Shown: positions 8,002 through 63,608 of the stretch, one piece after another | How positions within the stretch are numbered: position 1 is the stretch's first letter | Layout of the letters: each line of letters opens with the position of its first letter | Assembly (NCBI GenBank): GCA_963457665.1 | Contig: OY735202.1 | Location: 51,324,281-51,388,280, forward strand | DNA length: 64,000 bases | Source: Thysanoteuthis rhombus | Taxonomy: Eukaryota; Mollusca; Cephalopoda; Oegopsida; Thysanoteuthidae | Direction: 5' to 3' | The notes under the pieces: generated by a model | Seen by the model: only the letters and a program-made list of their open reading frames with translations | Database searches by the model: none | Told to the model about the DNA's origin: nothing | Translations under genes and position numbers: made by a program

Positions 8002-8014
8002 ACATTGCAGTTAT
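8002..8014. repeat. Left target-site duplication of the PLE
   Basis: The 13-bp sequence ACATTGCAGTTAT is repeated exactly at 10994-11006, directly outside the other end of the element. It marks the insertion boundaries. Confidence 0.85.
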
Positions 8015-8142
8015 TATAACTCGGAATTTTTGAGATGAGGTATTATTATTTCCATTATTATTCGGACCATCCTCATCTTTGTTGTTTTTTATACAACGTT
8101 TCGGCCGTTGCACTCTACGGCCTTCGTCAGGTATCATCTGGG

Positions 8143-8205
8143 AGATGATACCTGACGAAGGCCGTAGAGTGCAACGGCCGAAACGTTGTATAAAAAACAA
8201 CAAAG
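8143..8205 (+). ncRNA. Hammerhead-ribozyme-like core, 5' pseudo-LTR
   Basis: CTGACGA at 8152-8158 is followed by a 6-bp stem (GGCCGT 8160-8165 with ACGGCC 8174-8179) and GAAAC at 8180-8184. This is the CUGANGA / stem II / GAAA arrangement of a hammerhead core. Hammerhead motifs are known in PLE pseudo-LTRs. Two points are unresolved: an extra unpaired A (8159) sits between CTGACGA and stem II, and the cleavage triplet is uncertain. GTA at 8188-8190, after a two-pair stem III, is one option, but its flank does not pair well as stem I. Activity is not shown. Confidence 0.45.
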
Positions 8206-8233
8206 ATGAGGATGGTCCGAATAATAATGGAAA
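8143..8233 (+). repeat. 5' pseudo-LTR copy of the PLE
   Basis: A 91-bp sequence beginning AGATGATACCTGACGAAGG, repeated directly at 10904-10994 with a single difference (G at 8185, A at 10946). Confidence 0.85.
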
Positions 8234-10631
8234 TAATAATACCTCATCTCAAAAATTCCGAGTTATACTAACTAATCGGTACGGACCCGAAATAGTTAAA
8301 GAATGGAGAAGAGTCGAACGTCTCCACCAAAAACTGGCTAGAACGTCAAATCACCTGACATTCCTGTTCAGATGTCGGGACCTACGGCTCATTCCAACAG
8401 GCCTAATGACAAAACCCCCGGTACGATCGAAACGAGCTCAACTGGCTGCAGAAAAACTAGGTCATGCCCTAGTACGAGAGAGAATAAGCCACAATAGATG
8501 GAGAAAAAAGCAGCTACAGGATGAAATCGTGACTCGAAAGCAAGCGCTCCTAGACCTAGCGCAAACCGAAGACAGTGCTAGAATCGAAAACTGTCTCCAA
8601 AAATCGTACATGACCGAATGCAAAAATGTGAAGATCATACAAATAAGGAAGCTAGCAAAGCTGAAAGAACGATGCTTAAAGTCCAAGATCGATAATCCAC
8701 AACCCGTAAAGGCAGTGATCAACTTGAGTCAAAGGATACTATCAAACTCTGAAGAATCTATACTAAATAAAGGTCTCAACTTCGCAATCCCGAGTAAACG
8801 AGTCCCTTACTTGGACATCATAGCTCCAATCGAGGCAGCAGCCTTGAATAAGGATCTCCCCCATGCCCAGGGAGATGAGCTAAGATGGAAAGTGAGACAG
8901 GTCCTTGAAAAGGCCAGAGCCTCTGAGCCCAATATACAAAAAGAGGAATGGGCGGCCATCAAGACCCTTCGGAGTGACACAAGTATAGTCATACTGCCAG
9001 CGGATAAGGGAAACGCAACTGTGGTGATGGACAAGCTAGCATACAGTGAAAAGTTGGCCAACATAATTGAGGAGGGTGGCTACTGCAAGTTAAAAAGAGA
9101 TCCCACTCTGAAAACCGAGAGGAAGCTATCACAGATCCTAAGCAAGAACAAGAATCATTTCCCCCCAGTAACATACAGACAGTTAACTCAAAAATATAGT
9201 AAGCCACCACATATGTATGGCCTCCCAAAGATTCACAAGGTAGGTACTCCATTACGACCTATAGTAAGCTGTCGGGGCTCAGCATGCCATCCACTGAGCA
9301 GGTACCTGGTGAGTATAATCAACCCGCTGGTGGGTAAGACCTCATCCTATGTAAAGAACTCAGCTGACTTCGTAGATAAACTCAGAGGGGCTCCAATTCA
9401 AACACAACGAATGTTGAGCCTAGACGTGGTGAGCCTCTTCACACGAGTTCCTACATCCGAAGCACTATCAGTAGTTCGGGATAAATTAGGTTCAGATCCC
9501 ACATTGGATGAACGCACCAGCATCCCCCTTAACAACCTAATGGAAATGTTGACTTTCTGCATAGAAACAACATACTTCCAACTGGGGAATGAGATGTACC
9601 AACAGGAGGAAGGCTTAGCTATGGGATCACCGCTATCACCAGTGATGGCAAATATATACATGGAGTACTTTGAAGAATTGGCCTTAGGAACATCACCACT
9701 AAGGCCAAGCATGTGGCTTCGATATGTAGATGACACCTTCGTACTATGGCCGCATCTGGAAGACCCACAGTTACTACTTGACCATGTGAACTCAATCAGA
9801 GCTTCTATACAGTTCACAATGGAAAAGGAGAGTAACAATAAATTAGCCTTCCTAGATGTACTGGTAACAAGATCAGAACAAGGTTTCAATACATCTGTGT
9901 ATCGTAAGCCAACGTTCACTGGTCGATATCTCAACTTCGCCTCTAACCATCCATACAGCGTTAAAAAAGGGATCGTCCGATGCTTACAGCACCGAGCAAA
10001 GTTAATAAGTAGCGACTCTGACACATACCTCTGTGAGATGCGTAACATAAGCAAGAATCTCCAGAAAAATGGTTATCCCAAAGGCTTAACTGTCACCACT
10101 AGTGAAAGAAGAGTGACGGTGGAGGAGGAGGATGACAATCATAAACCAACAACGGTCTGTCTCCCCTACCTCAAGAATGTGTCTGAGAAGATCCAGAAGA
10201 TCTGCGCCCCATATAATATCCGGGCCGTATTCAGAAGCAGATCAACGCTACGCAGCTACCTCTCCCGCACCAAACCACCCACTGAGTTATCGAACACTAA
10301 AAACTGTGTATACTCAATACCGTGCAGCTGTGGGCACGAATACACAGGTGAAACATGTCGCCCCTTGAAGGTTCGGGTGGAAGAACACCGAAAAGCGGTG
10401 AGTAAAGGTGAAACCAATAAATCAGGTATAGCTGACCATGTATGGAAAGAAAAGGGAGACCACCTACCCCTCTGGAACAAGGTTGAGATAATTGACCAGG
10501 AAGAACATTGGAAAATCCGTAAATTGAAAGAGTCGGCCCATATGCTAGGCAAGCAAAACTGCCTCAGTAATCCTAGCATTGAAATGGATACCATATGGGA
10601 ACCTCTGATAATAAAAGACAGAAAACAATAA
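8145..10631 (+). CDS. PLE reverse transcriptase / GIY-YIG endonuclease
   Basis: The protein copies element RNA at a nicked target site; the GIY-YIG domain makes the nick. The open frame runs from ATG 8079 (850 codons). I start at the second ATG, 8145, because the first lies in the inverted arm. In 850-residue numbering: basic N-terminal PLE region about 65-210; LPADKGN about 305; MYGLPKIHK 379-387; RT motif A around D449 (LSLDVVSLFTRVP); AMGSPLSP 514-521; catalytic YVDD 549-552; a GIY-YIG domain from about 744, with VYSIPCSCG, YTGET at 755-759, R766, H770 and E818 (LKES). No ATG lies between the pseudo-LTR and residue 110, so translation probably starts inside the pseudo-LTR. The frame is complete and long enough for a functional PLE protein. 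The family call is firm; the exact start is not. Confidence 0.88.
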   Translation: MIPDEGRRVQRPKRCIKNNKDEDGPNNNGNNNTSSQKFRVILTNRYGPEIVKEWRRVERLHQKLARTSNHLTFLFRCRDLRLIPTGLMTKPPVRSKRAQLAAEKLGHALVRERISHNRWRKKQLQDEIVTRKQALLDLAQTEDSARIENCLQKSYMTECKNVKIIQIRKLAKLKERCLKSKIDNPQPVKAVINLSQRILSNSEESILNKGLNFAIPSKRVPYLDIIAPIEAAALNKDLPHAQGDELRWKVRQVLEKARASEPNIQKEEWAAIKTLRSDTSIVILPADKGNATVVMDKLAYSEKLANIIEEGGYCKLKRDPTLKTERKLSQILSKNKNHFPPVTYRQLTQKYSKPPHMYGLPKIHKVGTPLRPIVSCRGSACHPLSRYLVSIINPLVGKTSSYVKNSADFVDKLRGAPIQTQRMLSLDVVSLFTRVPTSEALSVVRDKLGSDPTLDERTSIPLNNLMEMLTFCIETTYFQLGNEMYQQEEGLAMGSPLSPVMANIYMEYFEELALGTSPLRPSMWLRYVDDTFVLWPHLEDPQLLLDHVNSIRASIQFTMEKESNNKLAFLDVLVTRSEQGFNTSVYRKPTFTGRYLNFASNHPYSVKKGIVRCLQHRAKLISSDSDTYLCEMRNISKNLQKNGYPKGLTVTTSERRVTVEEEDDNHKPTTVCLPYLKNVSEKIQKICAPYNIRAVFRSRSTLRSYLSRTKPPTELSNTKNCVYSIPCSCGHEYTGETCRPLKVRVEEHRKAVSKGETNKSGIADHVWKEKGDHLPLWNKVEIIDQEEHWKIRKLKESAHMLGKQNCLSNPSIEMDTIWEPLIIKDRKQ

Positions 10632-10634
10632 CAT

Positions 10635-10635
<1 letters not shown>

Positions 10636-10669
<34 letters not shown>
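10636..10669 (+). repeat. Internal poly(A) run after the PLE ORF
   Basis: Thirty-four consecutive A residues start 4 bases after the ORF stop, well before the element's 3' end. Confidence 0.9.
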
Positions 10670-10673
<4 letters not shown>

Positions 10674-10720
10674 TCACCTGAGGTTTAAGACTCCTAAAAA
10701 TTAACACCGGTTGTCCACAT

Positions 10721-10805
10721 GGACACATAGCGCAGTGGTTACAGCATCAGACAAATTACTGTTAAGTAATCTGATGGTACTAGGTTCGATCCTAGTGTGA
10801 GGCAG
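10721..10805 (+). ncRNA. tRNA-like module (Pol III A and B boxes) inside the PLE
   Basis: TAGCGCAGTGGTTA at 10728-10741 fits the Pol III A box and GGTTCGATCC at 10783-10792 fits the B box, about 41 bp apart as in tRNA genes. Between them CATCAGA and TCTGATG can pair as an extended anticodon-type stem around an 18-nt loop that contains a second small stem (TTAC/GTAA). ACTAGG/CCTAGT flank the B box as a T-arm-like stem with a shortened loop. The acceptor ends do not pair convincingly, so this is a tRNA-derived sequence as in SINE heads, not a working tRNA gene. Confidence 0.6.
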
Positions 10806-10865
10806 TATAACAATACTACTAACGCTGAAAGAGGGGAGTACGGTCGATATACCCCCGTCGGATAA

Positions 10866-10871
10866 AATAAA
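10866..10871 (+). promoter_or_regulatory. AATAAA polyadenylation-type signal in PLE 3' region
   Basis: A single AATAAA hexamer lies between the tRNA-like module and the 3' pseudo-LTR. It could serve the element's transcript; this is only positional. Confidence 0.3.
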
Positions 10872-10903
10872 GGGTTCGGTTCGTTACTTCCCAAAAATCT
10901 CCC

Positions 10904-10994
10904 AGATGATACCTGACGAAGGCCGTAGAGTGCAACGGCCGAAACATTGTATAAAAAACAACAAAGATGAGGATGGTCCGAATAATAATGGAAA
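10904..10994 (+). repeat. 3' pseudo-LTR copy with second hammerhead-like core
   Basis: Direct copy of 8143-8233 with one difference at 10946, next to the conserved GAAAC (10941-10945). It carries CTGACGA at 10913-10919 and the same 6-bp stem. The last base overlaps the target-site duplication. Confidence 0.85.
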
Positions 10995-11006
10995 CATTGC
11001 AGTTAT
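10994..11006. repeat. Right target-site duplication of the PLE
   Basis: ACATTGCAGTTAT, identical to 8002-8014. Confidence 0.85.
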
Positions 11007-11978
11007 GTAGAATAATTGATTGTGCATAATTTAATCTTAGGTAAAAGTTCCCAATAAGGAGAAACCCTGATTACTATAGCTACAAAAATATTTTTTTATC
11101 TAATTAAAGCATAGAATTTAGTATGATCATAAACACAAACAATTTGCTTCCCCTAAAAAAAACTTGCTTATTCTTGAAAACTAAAAATTTCCTGGAAAAA
11201 AACGAGAGGTCAGATTCAGTCAAAGCAGTTCATACCCCTCTACCGCATAGGATAAATATTTTTTCAAAAATTTTGCATCCGTCCACTCAAACAAATCTTA
11301 TATATCTGTCTGATTTGGGAAAATTTAACCTGGCAATCATGTGGTGAACAAAACATTTGCAATGAACAGATTTTGTCCTGTATTTCCAAAATCTGGTGAT
11401 AGGAGCTCTGGTAATAAGAGGATTTACAATATAAATCCTATTCAGGAAACCTAGGACTGGACTGATTTACATTGATTTGTTCAGGGTTTTCTAAACTCCA
11501 TTTGAATTATCGGTGTTTATGCTAAAGAATTGATTTTGTTGACGAATGAAAGCATTTTCTGTACATAAGCCCAGCCATATCCTGTGTATATCTGGAATAG
11601 TACAGGTGTTTACTTTTGCACTTTTTCGTTGATCAAGAGATTTATTGTAAATGTGGCCATTTCCAGACTTTAAAGTTTTTAACTCAATCTATACATGAAT
11701 TTGTTGCAAAATTACAGGTATGCCCTACTTTTAGAAAGTTCACTTGGTATCACTTTGCTTTTACAAAAGACCTTTATTAGTGTAGGTTTTCCCTGCTATC
11801 CAAAATGGCGAAAAAATTAGGATCAATTATCATCAATTTATGTGGGAAAATTTTCTGAGCTTCTCTGGACCTCCAAAATAATCTAGTGTGCCTGTTCCGA
11901 TGTTGAAGGTTGAAGTTCGTCGTCTACTGTGGCTGATGTTGAAAACTCCATTTACAGCAGTATGCTTGACTGTTCAGC
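11007..11978. other. AT-rich non-coding DNA, nothing recognised
   Basis: No coding motif or repeat is recognised between the PLE and the hAT-like scrap. Confidence 0.5.
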
Positions 11979-12207: not shown

Positions 12208-12556
12208 TCATCATCATCATCAGTCTTTTAACATCCGTCATTGGTCATTGACTTTCCCTAGGATTCGCCACAATTCTCTATCATGGGCGTTGCAAAGCCA
12301 GTAGTTTCTGAATCTGTCCAGTTCATCTCTCCATCTTGTATTCTGCCGGCCTCAGTTTCGCATATGATCTCTGGGGATCCATGTTGTGTGTCATGATGTC
12401 CATCGGTTGTCTTTCATTCTTGCAACATGGCCTGCCCATTACCATTTGAGTTTTTTAATAGTTTCTATGATGTCTCGGACTCCTGTTTTCTTCCTGATAT
12501 ACTGTGATGTCTTGTGATCTCTCCATGTAAGGTTGAGCACGATCCCAATTATCCTA
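12208..12556 (-). mobile_element. RTE-like LINE 3' end (C-terminal ORF, TGA-type tail)
   Basis: On the minus strand the translation reads GIVLNLTWRDHKTSQYIRKK, then KLKW-WAGHVARMKDNRWT, WIPRDHMRN, GRQNTRWRDELDRF and LWRILGKVNDQ. This is the conserved C-terminal tail of RTE-type LINE polymerases (KWQWAGHVAR...W.PR...RGRQ.TRW.DE). It carries in-frame stops, for example at the Q of KWQWAG, so it is dead. The 3' end (minus strand) finishes in a TGATGATGATGATGA microsatellite at 12208-12221, as RTE elements typically do. The clade name is by motif, not by tree. Confidence 0.75.
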
Positions 12557-29814: not shown

Positions 29815-30760
29815 GGAGTTCTCAATGAAATTCGATAAAAGGGTGTGTAGTAGGGTAAGGAAGAACTGATGAAATGTTGAAGTGGATCCATATACAATTA
29901 CCTCCCCTAGACCGTACTTATGTCCATGTAACATAATGTAGCCAAATTTTCATGTCTATCCCCTCAATATCTCCTCAAGTTTTCTGTGGATTTCAATGAA
30001 ATTTTGTGGAAGGATAAGCAATGGGAGACAAAAGAAGTTGGGGGAATTCGGGATCAAATCTAGGCTCAATTATCTTCCCCATGTCCTAGCTGACTGTCCA
30101 TAACCACCAAATATCTCCGAAAGTTCTCAATGGATTAGATTTAAATTTTGTGTAAGGGTGAACAAAAGGCTACTGAAGAACTAACTAAATTTTGGGGTGA
30201 AGCCAAGAGTTTCTTTTGATTGGGAGGTATTTTCTGTTATTGTTTTTTTTTTTGCTGTTGTTTTAGTTTTTTTTTTTTTTGTTTTTTTTTTTTTTGTTTT
30301 TTTTTTTCTATACATTTATGTATATGCTCGTGTCTGCCTACATGAACACTCCAAGAGTTCTCAATGAATTTCAATGTAATTTTCTGGAATGGTGGTCTAT
30401 AGGCCACAAAATGAGTGATTGGAATTTAGGGTGAACCCATGCACAAATACTTTCCTTATGTCATAGTTATATGTCCGCATTTATATATTTTGATATGAAG
30501 TTCATGATTGTCTACACAATATCTCCCAAAAGTTTTAAATGTATTTGAATGACCCTTTTATGAAAGGATGGACAATGTGCTGTGGAAAAAGTGATTAAAT
30601 CTTTTTATATTTATGTGTACGTACATATCTGTGTGTACGTACATGTTTATCCACACAAGTTCACAATGAATTTCAATGGCTTTTAGTGGAAGGGTAGACA
30701 ATGGTCCATGGAAAAAGTGATTGAATTTTGTAGTGGATCAATGCATAATTACTTCCCCTG
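29815..30760 (-). repeat. Repeat A array (reverse orientation), about six units
   Basis: The anchor AGTTCTCAATGAATTTCAAT, continuing AAATTTTGTGGAAGGGT, occurs in variant form near 29818, 29974, 30118, 30354, 30530 and 30660. Spacing is about 130-235 bp. Units also share a GTGGATCCA...AATTACCTCCCC-type block. All units here run in one direction, opposite to the first half of the 48.5-kb array. No protein is encoded. Confidence 0.7.
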
Positions 30761-35400: not shown

Positions 35401-36933
35401 TCACTAAAGTTGTTATGCATTCGTAAATTAGCTAGTCTATTTGAAGTTGGAAACTTTTGTATCACCCTGATATTGCAAATTTTGCCAACTCTTACAATGT
35501 TGTTTTGAAATGCTCAATGAAAATCTGGATATCCATTTGTAGGTTCTTTCAGAACCTCTGCCCTAGAAACTGTAATACTTACTTATACTATCTTCGTAGG
35601 GCAGATATTCTAATGACATAGTGTGCTCTAAAAAAAAAGCAGCCGTGCCACTTGTGAAACATGAATGAGTTATTTTGAAACAGAAACATGTTAAATTGAC
35701 TAGAAAATACACAATCAAACGTGACAAAATGACAACTGAACAATTCAAAATCAATTCTATGTCAAAAAAAAAAATAAATAAAAACTCCCAAACAAGCAAA
35801 TTTTAAACTTAAACAAAATTTCAAAGCCAACAAACAAGTAGATGCAAAAACAAGGAGGGTTTTCAGACTTTCAACTGCCTTTTGAAATTTCTATCATTGA
35901 ATGATGAGTGTTCACACCAGCCCTCAAAGAAAACTAAAACTAATGACACAGTTCATCTTATGCAGAATCAATTTTATCTAGTATACATTTAGGAGCAAAT
36001 TAGATGTTTTGATCATTTCCCCTTTCCACCACCATATACCTTGTTCAGTTGTCATTTAATCATGTTCTATCCTGTCTTTTCTTCATCCATTTACCAGGAG
36101 ATTCTAACCTTTTGTTTGGTGTCTTATTGACTGGACAGCATCAAACAATTCCTAGATTTCTACGTACAAATGTTCTTGGATGCTCCTCTCAATATGTTAT
36201 TCAAGTATTGCTGTTGACTCCTCTTGCCATTGTGCCTGGATCCTTTGAGCTACCATTTTATTTGCCTGCCCTAACTATCCTTTTCTATTCTCTCCCATGA
36301 TTCTGTTGGGTAATCATCCTTCACAAATCTGTTTGTAGTGCAGATTCAGTTATCACCTATTCCTTAGAGTTTGAACATCCACTTCCTTGAAAATTCCATT
36401 CTTTGATATGATTATGTTGGGTAATCTTCATTTTCCTAGTTGGTTTCTCTTGCTATGAAATAAGAACATTCCATAAGTATTCACATGCTTCTAGTAAATT
36501 TATTCATTAAAAACTGAAAATTACAGTTTGTTTATATTTGGATTCGATTTCACTTGCAATAAGTAAATTTATATTAGATAGATTAAATCAACTGAATATT
36601 TGTTGTAATTTTTCAATCTTTTCATTGAATATAAGATTTCTTGAAAAAAAACTTTTTATGAAAAGCCAAAGCTGCCATTTGTTATTGGTCAAAGCTAAAC
36701 TAGTTTTAGTTTTGCTTCCCATGAATTAGATGATCTTACAAAGTGACTCCCAATTTCTGTGATGAAACGGCTTTCTTGAACCCTCTCTCATAACTTGTTT
36801 ACATAAAATTTCTTTTTCTTGTAATAAAACATCCGCCCATGGATACTAATCAAATATTGGAGGAAGACTAACATGATTAGAATCTGTATGGCACATTGTT
36901 TGAATATATTGGAGAATAACAAAATTGCTATGC
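35401..36933. other. AT-rich non-coding DNA, nothing recognised
   Basis: An 83-codon frame at 36049-36300 has no recognisable domain. No repeat recognised. Confidence 0.45.
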
Positions 36934-37138
36934 TTTTTCTCTATGATCTGATCTTTCTCTATGATCTGATCTTTCTCTATGATCTGATCTTTCTCTATGA
37001 TCTGATCTTTCTCTATGATCTGATCTTTCTCTATGATCTGATCTTTCTCTATGATCTGATCTTTCTCTATGATCTGATCTTTCTCTATGATCTGATCTTT
37101 CTCTATGATCTGATCTTTCTCTATGATCTGATCTTTCT
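36934..37138. repeat. 18-bp minisatellite, ~11 near-identical copies
   Basis: The unit CTTTCTCTATGATCTGAT repeats about eleven times with essentially no variation inside the array. It is followed by a CTTCTTTG break. A period that is a multiple of three keeps all frames open, which explains spurious repetitive ORFs on both strands. Confidence 0.95.
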
Positions 37139-37437
37139 TCTTTGCTTCCTACCACATCCTAGTCTTTCCTTTCTCTTCTCCTGGTTGCCAGAAAGCAAGT
37201 AGCTACTCCCATCTTAGAAACAAAAAAGTTGAGTTTGAACCAAAAGTGGTAGATAATACACTTCAATACAAGTACTGCCACTCCTCACTTGCTTGCATTG
37301 ATTCTTCTGCTGAAGAACAAAAGAAGAAACAATAACCTGAGTTTCAGAAATATAGAGCTTCCACCATGACCTATTGATTTTATATATAAAATTTAGCAAA
37401 CTTGACAGTTATACTGTAACTATAATCCCTCAAATTT

Positions 37438-48524: not shown

Positions 48525-49825
48525 CTGACAAATTCCTGAATCCACACCAAAATTTAATCATTTCTCCCCCTACAGCCCACAAAATTTCATTGACATTCAT
48601 TGAGAACTATTGGAGACATTTTGTGGGAAGACATGAGTGAATACAGAAATATGTAGAGAAAGAAAAAAGAAAAAAAAAATGAAAAAATATCTCTTAATCA
48701 AAAACAAAATTCTGGATGCCCCCCAAAATTCAATCATCTTTTTCACACTATATGGCTCACTCTTCCACGAATTGGAGTTCATTCAGAACCTATTGGAGAT
48801 ATCAAGTGGACAAACAGAAGCGAATATGAATGTATGATAAAACACAAAAATCTTGCAAGCTTTAGTCACTTCTTCCTTACCATGTGCCATACCCTTTCAT
48901 ATAATTTTGTTAAAATCAATTCAGAACATTTGGAGATATTTTGTTGAATGACAAGAGCAAAAGTTATGAAAAAAAAGCACACTAGAAAAATCATTCTCAA
49001 TCATAGAACAAATCCCCGGATCCATCTTCTTTGGTACTTGCTTTACCCATCCATGAATTTTCATTGAGAAATTTTGGAGATATATGGACAGATAGGAGCA
49101 GATACAGTTATAAAGAAAAAATATACATCCGTCAAATCTTTAGATCTGACCCAAAATTCAATCACTTCGAATTCCTTCCATACTCTGTGGCCCACCTTTC
49201 CACAAAATTTGATTGACATTCATTGAGAACTTTTGAAGATGTCATATAGACAACAGGAGCAAATACAGAAATATAGGAAGAAAAAAAAAACTGATAGATA
49301 TCTCACAATTAAAAATAAATTCTTGGATTCACCCCAAAATTTAATCACCTGCCTTGATACATGTCTCACCCTTACAAAGTTACATTACAGTTCATTGAGA
49401 CTTTATGGAGATATCATGTTGACGGCCAGGAGCCAATACAGAAATTTATGAAAAACAAAACACAAAAATATCTCTCAATCAGAAACGAAATCCTTGATCT
49501 CTCCCAAAGTTTAATCACTTCCTCTTTACAATCTGGTTTGTCCTCTCACAACATTTGATGGATGCTCATTGAGAATTTGTGGCATTATCAGGTTGACAGA
49601 CTGCAGCAAATATAGAAATCTATAGATATTAAAATGGAACAATATCTCTCAATCAAAAACGAATTCCTGCATCTGCCATAAGATTTAGTTATTTCTCCCT
49701 TACAATGTACCTTGGCCTTCTGCAAAATTTAATTGAGAACTTTGGGAGATATCGTATAGACAGACAGGAGCAAATGCAAAAATGTATTGAAAAAAACACA
49801 AAAACATAAGTTCCTGAATCTAGCC
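48525..49825 (+). repeat. Repeat A tandem array, forward half (~8 units)
   Basis: The anchor TTCATTGAGAACTTTTGGAG, with variants, occurs near 48597, 48777, 48919, 49056, 49217, 49391, 49566 and 49733, that is every 137-180 bp. Each unit continues with GACAGACAGGAGCAAATACA, an A-rich stretch, ATCTCTCAATCAAAAAC, CTGGATCCNCCCCAAAATT and a CCACAAAATTTCATTGACAT block. The units are diverged. No conserved frame is present. Confidence 0.75.
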
Positions 49826-50700
49826 TATACCTGTCCAAACCATATCTCCCAAAGTTCTCAGTGAATGTCAATGATATTTTGTAGCAAGGTGGGCCACAAG
49901 ATAGAGAAGGATTGATCAAACTTTGGAGTGGATCAGGTATTTCATTCTTGATTAGAAGATATTTTAGAGTTTTTTATTTTATATTCGCTTCTGTCTGCCT
50001 ACATGATATCTTGGTAATTCCTCCATGAAATTTTGTGGAAAGATGCAGATCGCAAGGGAGAAGTCATTGAATTTGGGGGCAGATCCAGGAATTTTTTTGA
50101 TCGAGAGATATTCGTTTTGATATTTTATACAGTTCTGTATTCGATCATGTCTGTCAACATGGTATCTCCAAAAGTTCTCGTTGAATGTCAATGAAATTTT
50201 GTGGAAGGTTGGGCACAAAGATAAAGGAGTAATTGACATTCATTGAGAACTTGTAGAGATATCATATGGTCAGCAGGTGTAAATACAGAAATATAGTAGG
50301 AAAAAGACCTGAAAAATTTATATCTAATTTGGGTATAGATCCAGGAATTTGTTTCATTTGGAGATATTTTTAGATACATCCCTATATTCACTCCTATCTG
50401 TCAATATGAAATCTCCAAAAATTCTCTAATAATTTGAATGAAATTCTGTGGGTGCTTCAGGTACATTGTAAGGAAGAAATATCAAGTTTTTGCACAGATC
50501 CAGGAATTCATTTTTTATTGAGAGATATTTATCTGTTTTTATATTTTCTACATTTCTGTTTATGCTCCTGTCTATCTACACAATATCTTGAAAAGTTTTC
50601 TATGAATTTCAATTAAATTTTGTGGAAAGGTGGGCTGCAAGATGGAGGAGTGATCAAATTTTGAGGTAGATCTAGAAATTTGTGTTTCATTGGGAGATAT
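49826..50700 (-). repeat. Repeat A tandem array, reverse half
   Basis: From 49826 the same unit runs in the opposite direction (AAGTTCTCAGTGAATGTCAA near 49855, then 50017, 50172, 50415 and 50597). A single forward piece is inserted at about 50230-50320, so the array flips at least three times. Confidence 0.7.
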
Positions 50701-59084: not shown

Positions 59085-59790
59085 AAAATTCAATCATTTC
59101 TTCCATAGCTTATGGTCTACATTCCACCAAATATCATTGAAATTCATTGAGAATTTTTGGAGATAACATTTGGACAAACATAAAATTTGGATATTATGTA
59201 ATTTCAGCAGGAGATAATTGTGCATGGATCTGCTCAAAAAATTTTATCAGTTTTCCCATAACATATTGTCCACAAAATATCATTGGAAATCATCAATAAC
59301 TTTTGGAGATATTATGTGGACTGTCATGAATGTATACATGAATCTAAGTGGGGGGGATCTCTCTCCATTGAAAAAATATTCCTGGATCCGCTCCCAAATT
59401 TTACTACCTCTTCCTTACCCCATTTATCCTTCCCAAAAATTTAATTGAAATTCATCCTCTACTCTTGAAGATATTATGTGGACAGACATGGAATTTTGTT
59501 GAAATTATATGGTTTGGACGTATAATTACGACGTAGGGGAGGTAATTGTACACGGATTCACTCCAAAATTTAATCAGTTCTTCTTTAACTTTTTGTCCAC
59601 CCATCCACAAAATGTCAGAAATTCATAGAGAGCTTTGATGGATATTGTATGGATAGTCATGAGTATACACGTAAATATCTCGCAATCAAAAAAAAAAATC
59701 CTAGATATACCTCTTCCTTCCACAAAATTTGATTGCTTTCAGAGATATCGTGTGAGCAGACGAACAAACTGACTTAATCGAATAGATATG
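59085..59790 (+). repeat. Repeat A array, forward units (~4-5)
   Basis: Forward anchors near 59145, 59288, 59453 and 59622 (variants of TTCATTGAGAATTTTTGGAG), with CACTCCAAAATTTAATCA and CATCCACAAAATG-type blocks between them. Confidence 0.65.
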
Positions 59791-60189
59791 CCTGTTTTCA
59801 ACAGAGGTAAAATATGGATTTACATAGCATTTAAAATACATGTATTAGAGATTTGCATTGCCATGTGCTTTTTTACAAGGACATTCTATTTCACTATACT
59901 GCTAAAGAGGGTACTTAATTTCTGCCATTTTTACGGAAGTACTGTTCACATGAGCCCATGCTGAAAATTCAAGCCAGATAATGTTGAAAAATTAGAAGAA
60001 ATAAGAGAATTTAGATAAAATAAAACCAGATCGAAAGGAAGCTAATTCATATCAACTGTACTTCCTTTAATACTTTCATAAAAATAGTGGAAATGAAGTC
60101 CCCAGTTCAGCATTATTGTTGTTATATTGTGGCAAGAGAGTGGTATATCCTCCTTATTTGTATTTTATAAATTTCTTTGTCCGCTCCTG

Positions 60190-61410
60190 GCTGTTAACAC
60201 CATATCATCAAAAGTTCTCAATGAATTTCAAAGAAACTTTGTGGAAGTGTGGGACACATTATAAGGAAGATGAAATTAGATTTTCATGTTGATCCTAGAA
60301 TATTTTTTGATTGAAGGATTTTTTTTTTCTAAACAAATTTCTCTATTCACTCCTATTTGTCAATACGTCTCAAGAAGTTCTTAATTAATTTTGATGAAAT
60401 TTTGTGAAGGAAGAAGTGATTGAATTTTGGGCTGGATCCAGGAATTTTATTGAGGTTGAAAAGTATTTTTGCATTATTTTTTCTTCCTTTCATTCATTTC
60501 TGTATTCACTCGTGTCCATCTACATAAAATCTGTAAAAGTTCTCCATGAATTCCAATGAAATTTTGTTGAAGGATAAGGCACACATAAAGAAAGATGTGA
60601 TTGGGGCAGATCCAGGTATTTGCTCTTGATTAAAAGGTATTTTGGTGTTTGTTTGTTTTTTGTTTGTTCAATACATTTCTGTATTCCCGTCTCTCTGTTC
60701 ACACAATATATCCAAAAGTTTTGAATGAATTCCCAAGAAACTTTGATGAGAGATTTTTTTTTCATCTTTTTCTTAATACTTTTCTGTATTCGCTCATGTT
60801 ACACAATATTTCCCAAAATCAATAATGAATTTCAATGAAATTTTGTGCAGTTTGTGAAAGAAATGATTAAATTAAAAAATGGTGTGTATCCTGGGATTTG
60901 TATTTGATTGGGCAATATTGAATTTCTTTCAAATAATTCCTGTATTCTATCCTGTCTGTCAATACAATATTTCCAGATGTTCTCAATGAATTTTAGTGAA
61001 ATTTTGTAGGAGTATAAGAAACAAGATAAGAACTGAATTCATGGGCAGATCCAGATATTCGTTTTTGCCTGAGAGATATTTTTCTGTTTTGATATTTTAT
61101 ACGTCCTGCATGTCTGTCTACCCGATATCTCCAAAAGTTCTCCATTAATGTTAATGAAATTTTGTGGAAGGGTAAAGCACGTAAGGCAAATGTGATTAAA
61201 TTTTAGGGTGGACGCGGGAATTCATTTCTGATGGAAAGGTATCTTTTCTGTTTTGTTTTTTCTCTTCATACATTTCTATATTCACTCCTGTCTGTCCATA
61301 TGATATCTTCAAAAGTTCCTTATGAATGTCAATGTAATTTTGAACAATAGTGTACGAAATGAGTGATTTCATTTTGGGACAGATCCAGGAATTTGTTTTT
61401 GATTGAAAGA
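60190..61410 (-). repeat. Repeat A array, reverse units (~8)
   Basis: Reverse anchors AAGTTCTCAATGAATTTCAA and variants near 60213, 60377, 60537, 60716, 60825, 60978, 61136 and 61311 (109-179 bp apart). Each is followed by AAATTTTGTGGAAGG, then GCAGATCCAGGAATT and a TTTCTGTATTCACTCCTGTC block. Confidence 0.7.
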
Positions 61411-62865
61411 CATTTTTGAAATCTTATAATTTGGGATCTAGAAAAGCTAGAAAGATCTAGATTGTGACATTTTGTAGTACATTGACATTACTATCATTCT
61501 CACTAAGCGAAACTCGCTAAGTCAGGTCCTGAATTATGATTATTTGAGAATAGCTTCCCGGAAATACAAATAAAATTTCAAGCCCACTTTGACATCTTTT
61601 TGAAAAGATGATATTTTATAGCTTTAGGCTGATGAAATTTCAAAATCTACAGTACCTCTTTGAGTGGTGAGGATGCCTCTGAGAAAAGAAAAAAAAACTG
61701 TCATGGCACTGAATTTTTCCATATCATTGAGTAGAACAGATCATCTCTTAAGTTACACATTTCAGAATTCTATTGTAATGAAGGATTTTCTATAATTATA
61801 AATAATATAGCTTAATATTAGAATGGAAAATACTTTGCAGAACAGATATTTTCTCAAATTTTATGATGTGCTTAGGCTCCATTGGAACTTAATGTACTTA
61901 AAACTGAGTATATTTGTCATGAGGGAAATAAAGTCTCTGGATGAAATGTTTTTCACAACAAAGAAATAGCTATTTTAGGAAATCACTTTCAAGCTGGAAT
62001 ACAAATTTTGAAAAGTAAATATCAGTGACAGGAGAAAAAGTCTCTAAAGTAAAAAGGTAAAATTAAGACAAAAACCCAGTGAATTTGAAAGAAATGGCAT
62101 TTTATTTGGCTATAAATATCATCTCATGTGGTAGAGATAAAAATTGTTTACTAGAGAAGATGAAATGGCCTGTAAAATTGAATGGCCTTAATGGATGTTT
62201 TCTGTACATATTTGATTTTTGCATAAAACTCCGGTAATGTCTTGTAAGCATACTTCACTGTAAAATGTATTTGCTTCTCAATGGTTCCTCTCTCTCCCCC
62301 TTTTTCTTTTGTCATCTCTTAAGGAGAATTTGGTCTTTATTATTTTTAGCGCAATCCATTGAATACAATTCCTTGTTCCTAAAATGTGGTTCAATTCCCA
62401 TTAGATTAAAGTTATTTAGAGGCTTCTGATTTTTGCAAAAGAAAGTTATGCAGTCACTCAGCCTTTGTAGCAGTGAACTTGTGGACATTCAGAAAAATGT
62501 TGTTCGGATAAATGCAAGAATCTGAAGAAAGAATGAGTGGGCATTTTTTTCTTTCAGTCACTGAAAAATTTATACTATCTGTTGTATAAAAAATGTAGAT
62601 GTCTATCCTTAACACTATGTTTGTTAAATAAAAAATCAGTTAATGTTGAAGAATGGCTTTTTGAGTTAAATACATATTGTTCTTTTTAACCACTTTTACT
62701 ATTTGTATAGCATGGGTTTAGGTTTGAAAGAAGAAAAATGTATTTCATGAATTGACATTTTTGGATAGAACTCAGAAGAACTGATGATTGCTGTATATTT
62801 AGGGTGTTATAATATTAGAGAAATGATGAGAACTTGAAGACAATCCATGATTAATGACTTTTATC
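61411..62865. other. AT-rich intronic DNA before the HS6ST exon
   Basis: No motif or repeat recognised. Confidence 0.5.
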
Positions 62866-62884
62866 TTTTTTCTTTTCCTTTCAG
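62866..62884 (+). promoter_or_regulatory. Splice acceptor of the HS6ST terminal exon
   Basis: A pyrimidine tract (TTTTTTCTTTTCCTTTCAG) ends at 62884. HS6ST homology begins immediately afterwards with (R)YHYITMLRHPV, and the tract itself translates to nonsense, which sets the boundary. Confidence 0.85.
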
Positions 62885-63608
62885 ATACCATTATATCACA
62901 ATGTTGCGGCATCCAGTCCATCGATTTCTAAGTGAATGGCGGCACGTCCAGCGGGGGGCCACGTGGAAGACCGCACGTTACCACTGCAACGGGCGTGATG
63001 CCACGCTGGAGGAGGTACCGTTCTGCTATGAGGGTGTCAACTGGCGCGGCGTTTCGCTGGACGAGTTCATTGCTTGCTCTCACAATATGGCTCGCAACCG
63101 CCAGGTCCGTATGATTGCCAATCTTAGCCTCGTTAACTGCTACAATTCGACAGGTATGTCCATAGAAGAGCGTAACCACCGTATTCTGGAGAGTGCTAAG
63201 GAGAACCTACTCAATATGGACTTCTTTGGGCTGACTGAATTCCAAGTTTATTCTCAGCAACTTTTTGAGAGCACATTTGGTTTGCAGTTTTATGAAGATT
63301 TTGTTCAGTTTAATGTGACACGCAGCAGTCGTGTGAACATAACTATGAACCAATTGGTGAAAATCACAAGACTTAATAAGATGGATATGATGTTCTATGA
63401 CTTTGCTAAGGATTTGTTCCTTCAGCGCTATGATCTGCTCAAACAACAGCAATCACTAACTCCTTTAGGTTCTCTACATGGGAATTACACAACACCCAAC
63501 CCAATTATTACACAGACCACAAAGAGGTTCTATGCAATACCAGACCATCCGCCCAGAAGAAACCTCTCCTATCACAGACCTGTTCGACAATTCCGACGAA
63601 ATGGATAG
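62885..63608 (+). CDS. HS6ST: Heparan sulfate 6-O-sulfotransferase, terminal exon
   Basis: HS6ST is a Golgi type II membrane enzyme that transfers sulfate from PAPS to the 6-O position of glucosamine in heparan sulfate. This exon encodes about 240 C-terminal residues. The first codon is completed by its first base (two bases come from upstream). MLRHPVHRFLSEWRHVQRG holds the 3'-phosphate-binding motif, with the conserved Arg of LRHP and Ser of FLSEW. RGATWK, the ARNRQVRM-type segment (NMARNRQVRMIANLSLVNCY), AKENLLNMDFFGLTEF and LNKMDMMFYDFAKDLFLQRY follow in family order. Sequons NLS, NST, NVT, NIT, NYT and a second NLS fit a glycosylated lumenal domain. The PAPS 5'-sulfate loop, membrane anchor and N-terminus lie on upstream exons outside the recognised sequence. 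The tail after QRYDLLKQQ is poorly conserved in this family. Stop TAG is at 63606-63608. Paralogue number cannot be assigned. Confidence 0.93.

Follow-up and report, generated by a model that had tools for sequence, protein, structure and literature searches.

A tRNA-like, Pol III promoter-like module between the ORF and the 3' pLTR of a PLE in the cephalopod Thysanoteuthis rhombus

Architecture of the element

The DNA analysed here, a stretch of 64,000 nucleotides from Thysanoteuthis rhombus that we refer to as the window (assembly GCA_963457665.1, contig OY735202.1, positions 51,324,281 to 51,388,280 of the forward strand), holds a Penelope-like element (PLE) at approximately 8015-10993; blastn within the window showed no second copy of its repeat or spacer. 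The element is framed by a target-site duplication (TSD), ACATTGCAGTTAT, whose left copy (8002-8014) is identical at 13/13 positions to the right one (10994-11006), the first A of the latter doubling as the last base of the repeat. One inverted and two direct copies of the pseudo-LTR (pLTR) are present. The inverted copy with its tail forms the left arm (8015-8139, minus strand) and is identical at 125/125 positions to 8143-8267; the inverted repeat extends further, to 8009/8273, with one mismatch. The 5' direct copy (8143-8233, plus strand) overlaps the start of the ORF and is 90/91 identical to 10904-10994. The 3' pLTR (10897-10993, plus strand) opens with the palindrome ATCTCCCAGAT (10897-10907), at which both 5' copies stop, and 10897-10994 is 97/98 identical to the left arm plus the junction. 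Since the pLTR copies are near-identical, the 5' pair being identical and the 3' copy differing from the 5' direct one by a single CG to CA change in 91 bases, we take the insertion to be young.

The element has two end points, 34 nt apart. Its 3' end, where the 3' pLTR stops, is the inner one and matches position 8233, which lies 89 nt into the ORF (uncertain by one A common to the TSD); the outer end, that of the inverted copy, matches 8267, 123 nt into the ORF. According to the accessible sections of work on a PLE of Anolis (Frangieh et al. 2024, PMC11167929), the RNA is reverse transcribed from two neighbouring internal sites near the beginning of the ORF, the sequence separating them makes up the optional 'tail' (30-40 bp) seen in genomic copies, and each of the two DNA strands is cut and extended. 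The 34-nt offset seen here fits internal initiation at two sites. The features expected of pLTRs in a PLE, namely direct and inverted copies, an optional tail of ~30-40 bp and a TSD, are all found at this locus, with three copies, a 34-nt offset and a TSD identical at 13/13 positions.

Taken as a whole, the 5' end of the element (8009-8273) is a near-perfect palindrome with arms of 131 nt and one mismatch. Its centre, ATCTGGGAGAT, matches the hairpin ATCT-CCC-AGAT that opens the 3' pLTR, a pattern suggestive of a cDNA end that annealed or primed itself there. Rfam microRNA matches between 8055 and 8227, all of them below gathering, were put down to the pLTR palindrome.

The ORF (8145-10631, plus strand) starts with an ATG at 8145 and encodes 828 aa without an internal stop. 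It is an RT ORF by its match to Pfam RVT_1 (37.8 bits against a cut-off of 29.6, E 2.2e-9); RVT_1 is a general model and not specific to PLEs, and the RT was assigned to the PLE type from the architecture of the element. Pfam gave no match to GIY-YIG in the ORF up to E 5. Near the C-terminus, inspection by eye revealed the motif VYSIPCSC...EYTGET, which we take to be GIY-YIG-like on the family pattern. A PDB sequence search with the protein returned weak matches only, the best being group II intron-like RTs (E 5.3e-5). No relatives were found in viral_contigs or genome_contigs, which consist of viral and prokaryote sequence only and are thus uninformative for animals, and none of the pattern matches, in one stretch of the former and six of the latter, was confirmed as a relative. 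Compared with synonymous shuffles, the ORF (8145-10628) is depleted both in TT (68 vs 84.5) and in CpG (81 vs 103.8), and its Phe codons comprise 16 TTC and 1 TTT.

A motif scan located hammerhead-like cores (CTGACGA ... GAAAC GTT) in the 5' pLTR (8152-8187, plus strand) and in the 3' pLTR (10913-10948, plus strand), where the CG to CA change falls at 10946, outside the conserved core. Helix I is formed by AUAC/GUAU (4 bp), helix II by 6 bp after one unpaired base, and helix III has at most one pair. The scan was designed after inspecting the sequence; within the window it finds the three pLTR copies only, with 0 occurrences in 200 Markov sequences of 64 kb (one strand). None of the Rfam hammerhead models matched the window at E values up to 10, a result that fits with the minimal form described for PLE hammerheads (PMC7761336, in excerpt). 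The pLTR motif may be called hammerhead-like, with the elements of a putative minimal type I hammerhead.

Other repeats in the window include a tandem array with an 18-bp unit (36890-37192), whose central copies are 96% alike and which is open in one frame per strand, and a clustered degenerate repeat in both orientations, with spacings often of ~145-325 bp (29961-30757, 48570-50654 and 59117-61432). Closer to the element, at 12210-12480, a short ATC repeat precedes what looks on visual inspection like part of a LINE (RTE-like).

The A-run, the spacer and the tRNA-like module

Four nucleotides past the stop codon begins a run of 34 A residues (A34; 10636-10669, plus strand), the longest of the 17 A or T stretches in the window that reach at least 15 nt. 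It is preceded by an AATAAA resembling a polyadenylation signal (10610-10615, plus strand; 20 nt ahead of the run). Since the ORF contains four AATAAA against 3.0 expected by synonymous shuffling, this hexamer alone is weak evidence; taken together, the stop codon, the AATAAA and A34 resemble the polyadenylated 3' terminus of a transcript of the PLE itself. That A34 might be the tail of a tRNA-like SINE was ruled out, as it lies upstream of the tRNA-like head. A further AATAAA, at 10866-10871, follows the tRNA-like module within the spacer and recalls those SINEs whose Pol III RNA is polyadenylated, of which some examples are described (PMC8466645, in excerpt).

Between A34 and the 3' pLTR lies a spacer of 227 bp (10670-10896, plus strand) that contains the tRNA-like module. 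It is present in a single copy in the window, blastn of 10670-10900 having returned, among the matches listed, only itself and matches of 11-12 nt. Neither 5' pLTR copy extends past the palindrome into the spacer, so that the spacer and its module lie outside the pLTR proper. The original prediction had placed the module in the 3' region of the PLE; it does sit there, between the ORF and the 3' pLTR, and not within the pLTR.

An 8-bp direct repeat, AAAAATCT, brackets the spacer, its left copy being located at 10665-10672 and its right copy, which overlaps the start of the pLTR, at 10893-10900 (both plus strand). A duplication flanking the module, regarded beforehand as the mark of a private insertion, is thus partly present. 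As for the TSD of its own that a tRNA-derived SINE would carry, this mostly-A repeat around the spacer, noted after the fact, is a weak candidate. The occurrence of TCT as the three letters following the A-run has a chance of 0.0136 by shuffling, also judged after the fact.

The module itself (10720-10803, plus strand) bears an A box, TAGCGCAGTGGT (10728-10739, plus strand), with 1 mismatch to TRGCNNAGYNGG, and a B box, GGTTCGATCC (10783-10792, plus strand), one base short of GGTTCGANTCC. The boxes were scored against TRGCNNAGYNGG and GGTTCGANTCC as what we take to be the respective consensus sequences, and the 10-base form of the B box was admitted after it was seen. With no more than one fault per box, such a pair occurs once on the plus strand of the window, not at all on the minus strand, and in none of 200 first-order Markov sequences of 64 kb (one strand). 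With two faults per box, one more pair appears in the window (minus strand) and 20 appear in 30 Markov windows. As loose pairs are common in Markov sequence, only the strict pair is unusual, and it is unlikely to have arisen by chance; the A and B boxes of a tRNA-derived SINE are present here in strict form. A tRNA-like sequence with both boxes following an A34 run inside the element, as originally proposed, was recovered (A34 at 10636-10669, boxes at 10728 and 10783).

Models of whole tRNAs gave a less even picture. A lack of support from tRNA-model scanning had been named in advance as a point against the module. The Rfam tRNA model (RF00005) matches 10724-10799 at 25.2 bits, below its gathering threshold of 29. 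No other stretch of the window matches the tRNA model at E values up to 10; this match itself has E = 0.67 for the window and all families and 0.034 when the search is limited to 3.3 kb. Its alignment shows an enlarged anticodon arm and only 4 paired bases in the acceptor stem. ARAGORN found no tRNA with default settings. Its relaxed settings predict a tRNA at 10720-10803, a result that was set aside as non-discriminating, given 67 matches in the window vs 61-98 in each of six Markov windows. The fold of 10716-10805 is not unusually stable (z -1.24), nor is that of 10800-10896 unusual (z -0.77). On these sequence features the module would be a decayed relative of tRNA, promoter-like in the manner of SINE heads, and not a tRNA gene.

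Origin and possible role of the module

A single outer 13-bp TSD, identical at 13/13 positions, surrounds the ORF, A34, the module and the pLTR, which must therefore have integrated together in the last transposition. The earlier proposal that a Pol III-type module and a poly(A) stretch reside inside the PLE and are mobile with it holds for the whole composite.

To our mind the explanation with the best claim, at about an even chance of being right and ahead of both a family-level Pol III promoter and a PLE-dependent SINE, is that the module is a captured segment resembling a SINE head, with a Pol III type 2 promoter-like sequence, carried as cargo in a young and canonical-looking PLE. Reverse transcription would have started at an internal position of a pLTR-bearing RNA, within its ORF-start 'tail', would have passed through the hammerhead and the spacer, and would have gone on into a polyadenylated PLE message at its 3' end, the poly(A). 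The jump into the PLE message may have been either the current event or an ancestral one, and the join may have come about via template switching or via insertion at AAAAATCT. As cargo, the promoter might perhaps still work and yet be dispensable for the PLE. The observed order of ORF, AATAAA, A34, spacer, hammerhead and tail is the one that such reverse transcription predicts. There is also a precedent for capture: in A. vaga, unique spacers of 0.9-1.5 kb before the 3' pLTR of Pen1 are attributed to captured host DNA, and a host gene is framed by Pen3a pLTRs and a TSD (PMC3846280, in excerpt); the 227-bp spacer fits among the captured spacers of the Pen1 type. Against capture stand the weakness of AAAAATCT, at 8 bp and mostly A, and that of the AATAAA. 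From the usual layout of tRNA genes, the 5' end of the module presumably lies at ~10715-10720, and the 46-50 nt between A34 and this expected Pol III start count against a clean jump from the 5' end of a Pol III transcript.

As the PLE is known here from a single copy, one private event and a fixed family structure look alike, and the module could instead belong to the PLE family as a functional component, namely a Pol III promoter producing template RNA. We consider this unlikely. In head-to-tail arrays, the transcript would cross the hammerhead and the ORF of the next copy. A lone copy would yield an RNA of ~375 nt comprising the module, the hammerhead, the tail and flank up to a T7 run (11091-11097, plus strand), which is the first T-run of four or more downstream of the module, lies in flanking DNA and would end a Pol III transcript. 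An RNA of this kind would be usable because PLE reverse transcription starts internally, ignoring the RNA 3' end. The module has retained its A and B boxes, and the sense strand from 8143 to 10993 is free of TTTT. Absence of TTTT from the ORF has P 0.018 when codons are drawn by base composition, and TTT runs number 4 in the ORF vs 12.0 expected by synonymous shuffling (P 0.001). Pyrimidine tracts of the ORF are not depleted, and a stop-to-stop frame at 62838-63608, used as a host comparison and presumably part of a heparan-sulfate 6-O-sulfotransferase exon, has no TTT deficit. However, the deficit of TT dinucleotides fully accounts for the loss of TTT from the ORF (residual z -0.29), and an ORF without TTTT is expected in 37% or 33% of shuffles that use the element's own codon usage. 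T-run avoidance was therefore rejected as proof of Pol III transcription: the sense strand is compatible with Pol III and offers no evidence of its use. The 5' pLTR copies, moreover, are without the module, its tRNA fold has decayed, and Pol III is described as weakly processive (PMC10886601, in excerpt).

A working Pol III promoter counts as a possible, putative function of the module. Its most elaborate form, an autonomous PLE with such a promoter beside its terminal repeat, would rely on a polyadenylated Pol II message to encode the protein and on a hammerhead-tail RNA, made by Pol III, to serve as the template, with template switching joining both at each insertion. This we find improbable; if true, a two-transcript PLE would correspond, among PLEs, to TRIMp3 and might be the birthplace of a PLE-dependent SINE.

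The order of module, hammerhead and tail is also what a PLE-dependent SINE would be expected to look like, and PLEs have been proposed as mobilisers of hammerhead-bearing retrozymes (PMC7229834, in excerpt). The copy described here would then be SINE RNA fused to the PLE message, the SINE belonging to a tRNA-derived family with the same pLTR and tail and mobilised by the PLE. With no short copy found by blastn in the 64-kb window, and with ~46-50 nt of extra sequence separating the A-run from the head, we doubt this account. A LINE might also have inserted a SINE into an older PLE copy in which the A-run adjoined the pLTR, generating AAAAATCT as a TSD, with the copy transposing later. AAAAATCT does flank both sides and begins with A, as targets of the L1 type do, and there is a short AAAAA end; but the SINE would have to start ~48 nt ahead of the tRNA-like head, and 8 bp that are mostly A make a weak TSD, which leaves this insertion scenario with little to recommend it. 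In MALAT1 an encoded A-tract is followed by a tRNA-like structure that is cut by RNase P, and here too an A-tract precedes a tRNA-like segment. That the two form a MALAT1-like device for RNA 3' processing is nevertheless barely credible, in view of the 50 nt between the A-run and the tRNA-like start, the weak acceptor stem and the unexceptional folding.

The locus bears on how template RNA is produced and selected by PLEs. Since its RT seems to have moved on from the hammerhead and the spacer to the poly(A) end of a message, such a copy would preserve the trace of a template switch. PLE-dependent SINEs or retrozymes, for which the literature surveyed has circumstantial evidence only (PMC7229834, in excerpt), could arise by way of a Pol III promoter next to a PLE repeat.

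Comparison with known systems

In its overall plan the element resembles canonical EN+ PLEs as described in the accessible parts of the relevant papers. With PAc of Anolis it shares a hammerhead at the start of the ORF and internal RT start sites (PMC11167929), with A. vaga Pen2a the direct and inverted pLTRs, the optional tail of ~30-40 bp (31 bp in A. vaga) and the TSD (PMC3846280), and with both an ORF of roughly the same size (~830-840 aa). A palindrome at the 5' end of the pLTR is also a feature of Pen2/Pen3a (Arkhipova et al. 2013, PMC3846280). What sets the present element apart is the A34 run and tRNA-like module before the 3' pLTR, of which the same parts of these papers make no mention for PAc or Pen2a. 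A further parallel among PLEs is A. vaga Pen1_Av, which likewise has a non-repeated spacer between the ORF and the 3' pLTR (PMC3846280, in excerpt); the spacer found here, in contrast, is 227 bp long with a Pol III-type promoter-like sequence, and Pen1 is mostly without an inverted pLTR.

Metazoan retrozymes, which have been proposed to be moved by PLEs, also carry type I hammerheads, but as described in the accessible text they are non-coding, give rise to RNAs of 170-400 nt and have classical hammerheads (PMC7229834). The element is not one of these short tandem units, having an 828-aa ORF between its hammerhead-bearing repeats and at most one pair in helix III. The Sm-alpha repeat of schistosomes is SINE-like, with a Pol III promoter and a hammerhead; unlike the module described here, it is not joined to an RT gene.

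In a partial survey of literature titles and abstract openings, with few subscription papers among them, none named a PLE with a tRNA-like promoter, and the accessible part of PMC8848866 contains nothing on such an element. An analogue outside PLEs is TRIMp3 (Helenus, Ajax, Cassandra), a group of short LTR elements whose promoters are of tRNA or 5S type (Kojima 2024, PMC10886601, in excerpt). Their origin has been proposed to lie in SINE insertion into the repeat, and their autonomous LTR partners are argued to need Pol II (PMC10886601). The element resembles TRIMp3 in that a tRNA-like promoter sequence, tRNA- or 5S-derived in TRIMp3, is joined to the terminal repeats of a retroelement (PMC10886601). 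Membership of the Helenus type was rejected, as TRIMp3 are short, non-autonomous LTR elements, whereas here the PLE encodes an RT and the tRNA-like sequence lies outside the repeat. An RT-encoding element with a tRNA-like module of this kind would, if it proves to be a family trait, represent a new combination with respect to the literature surveyed.
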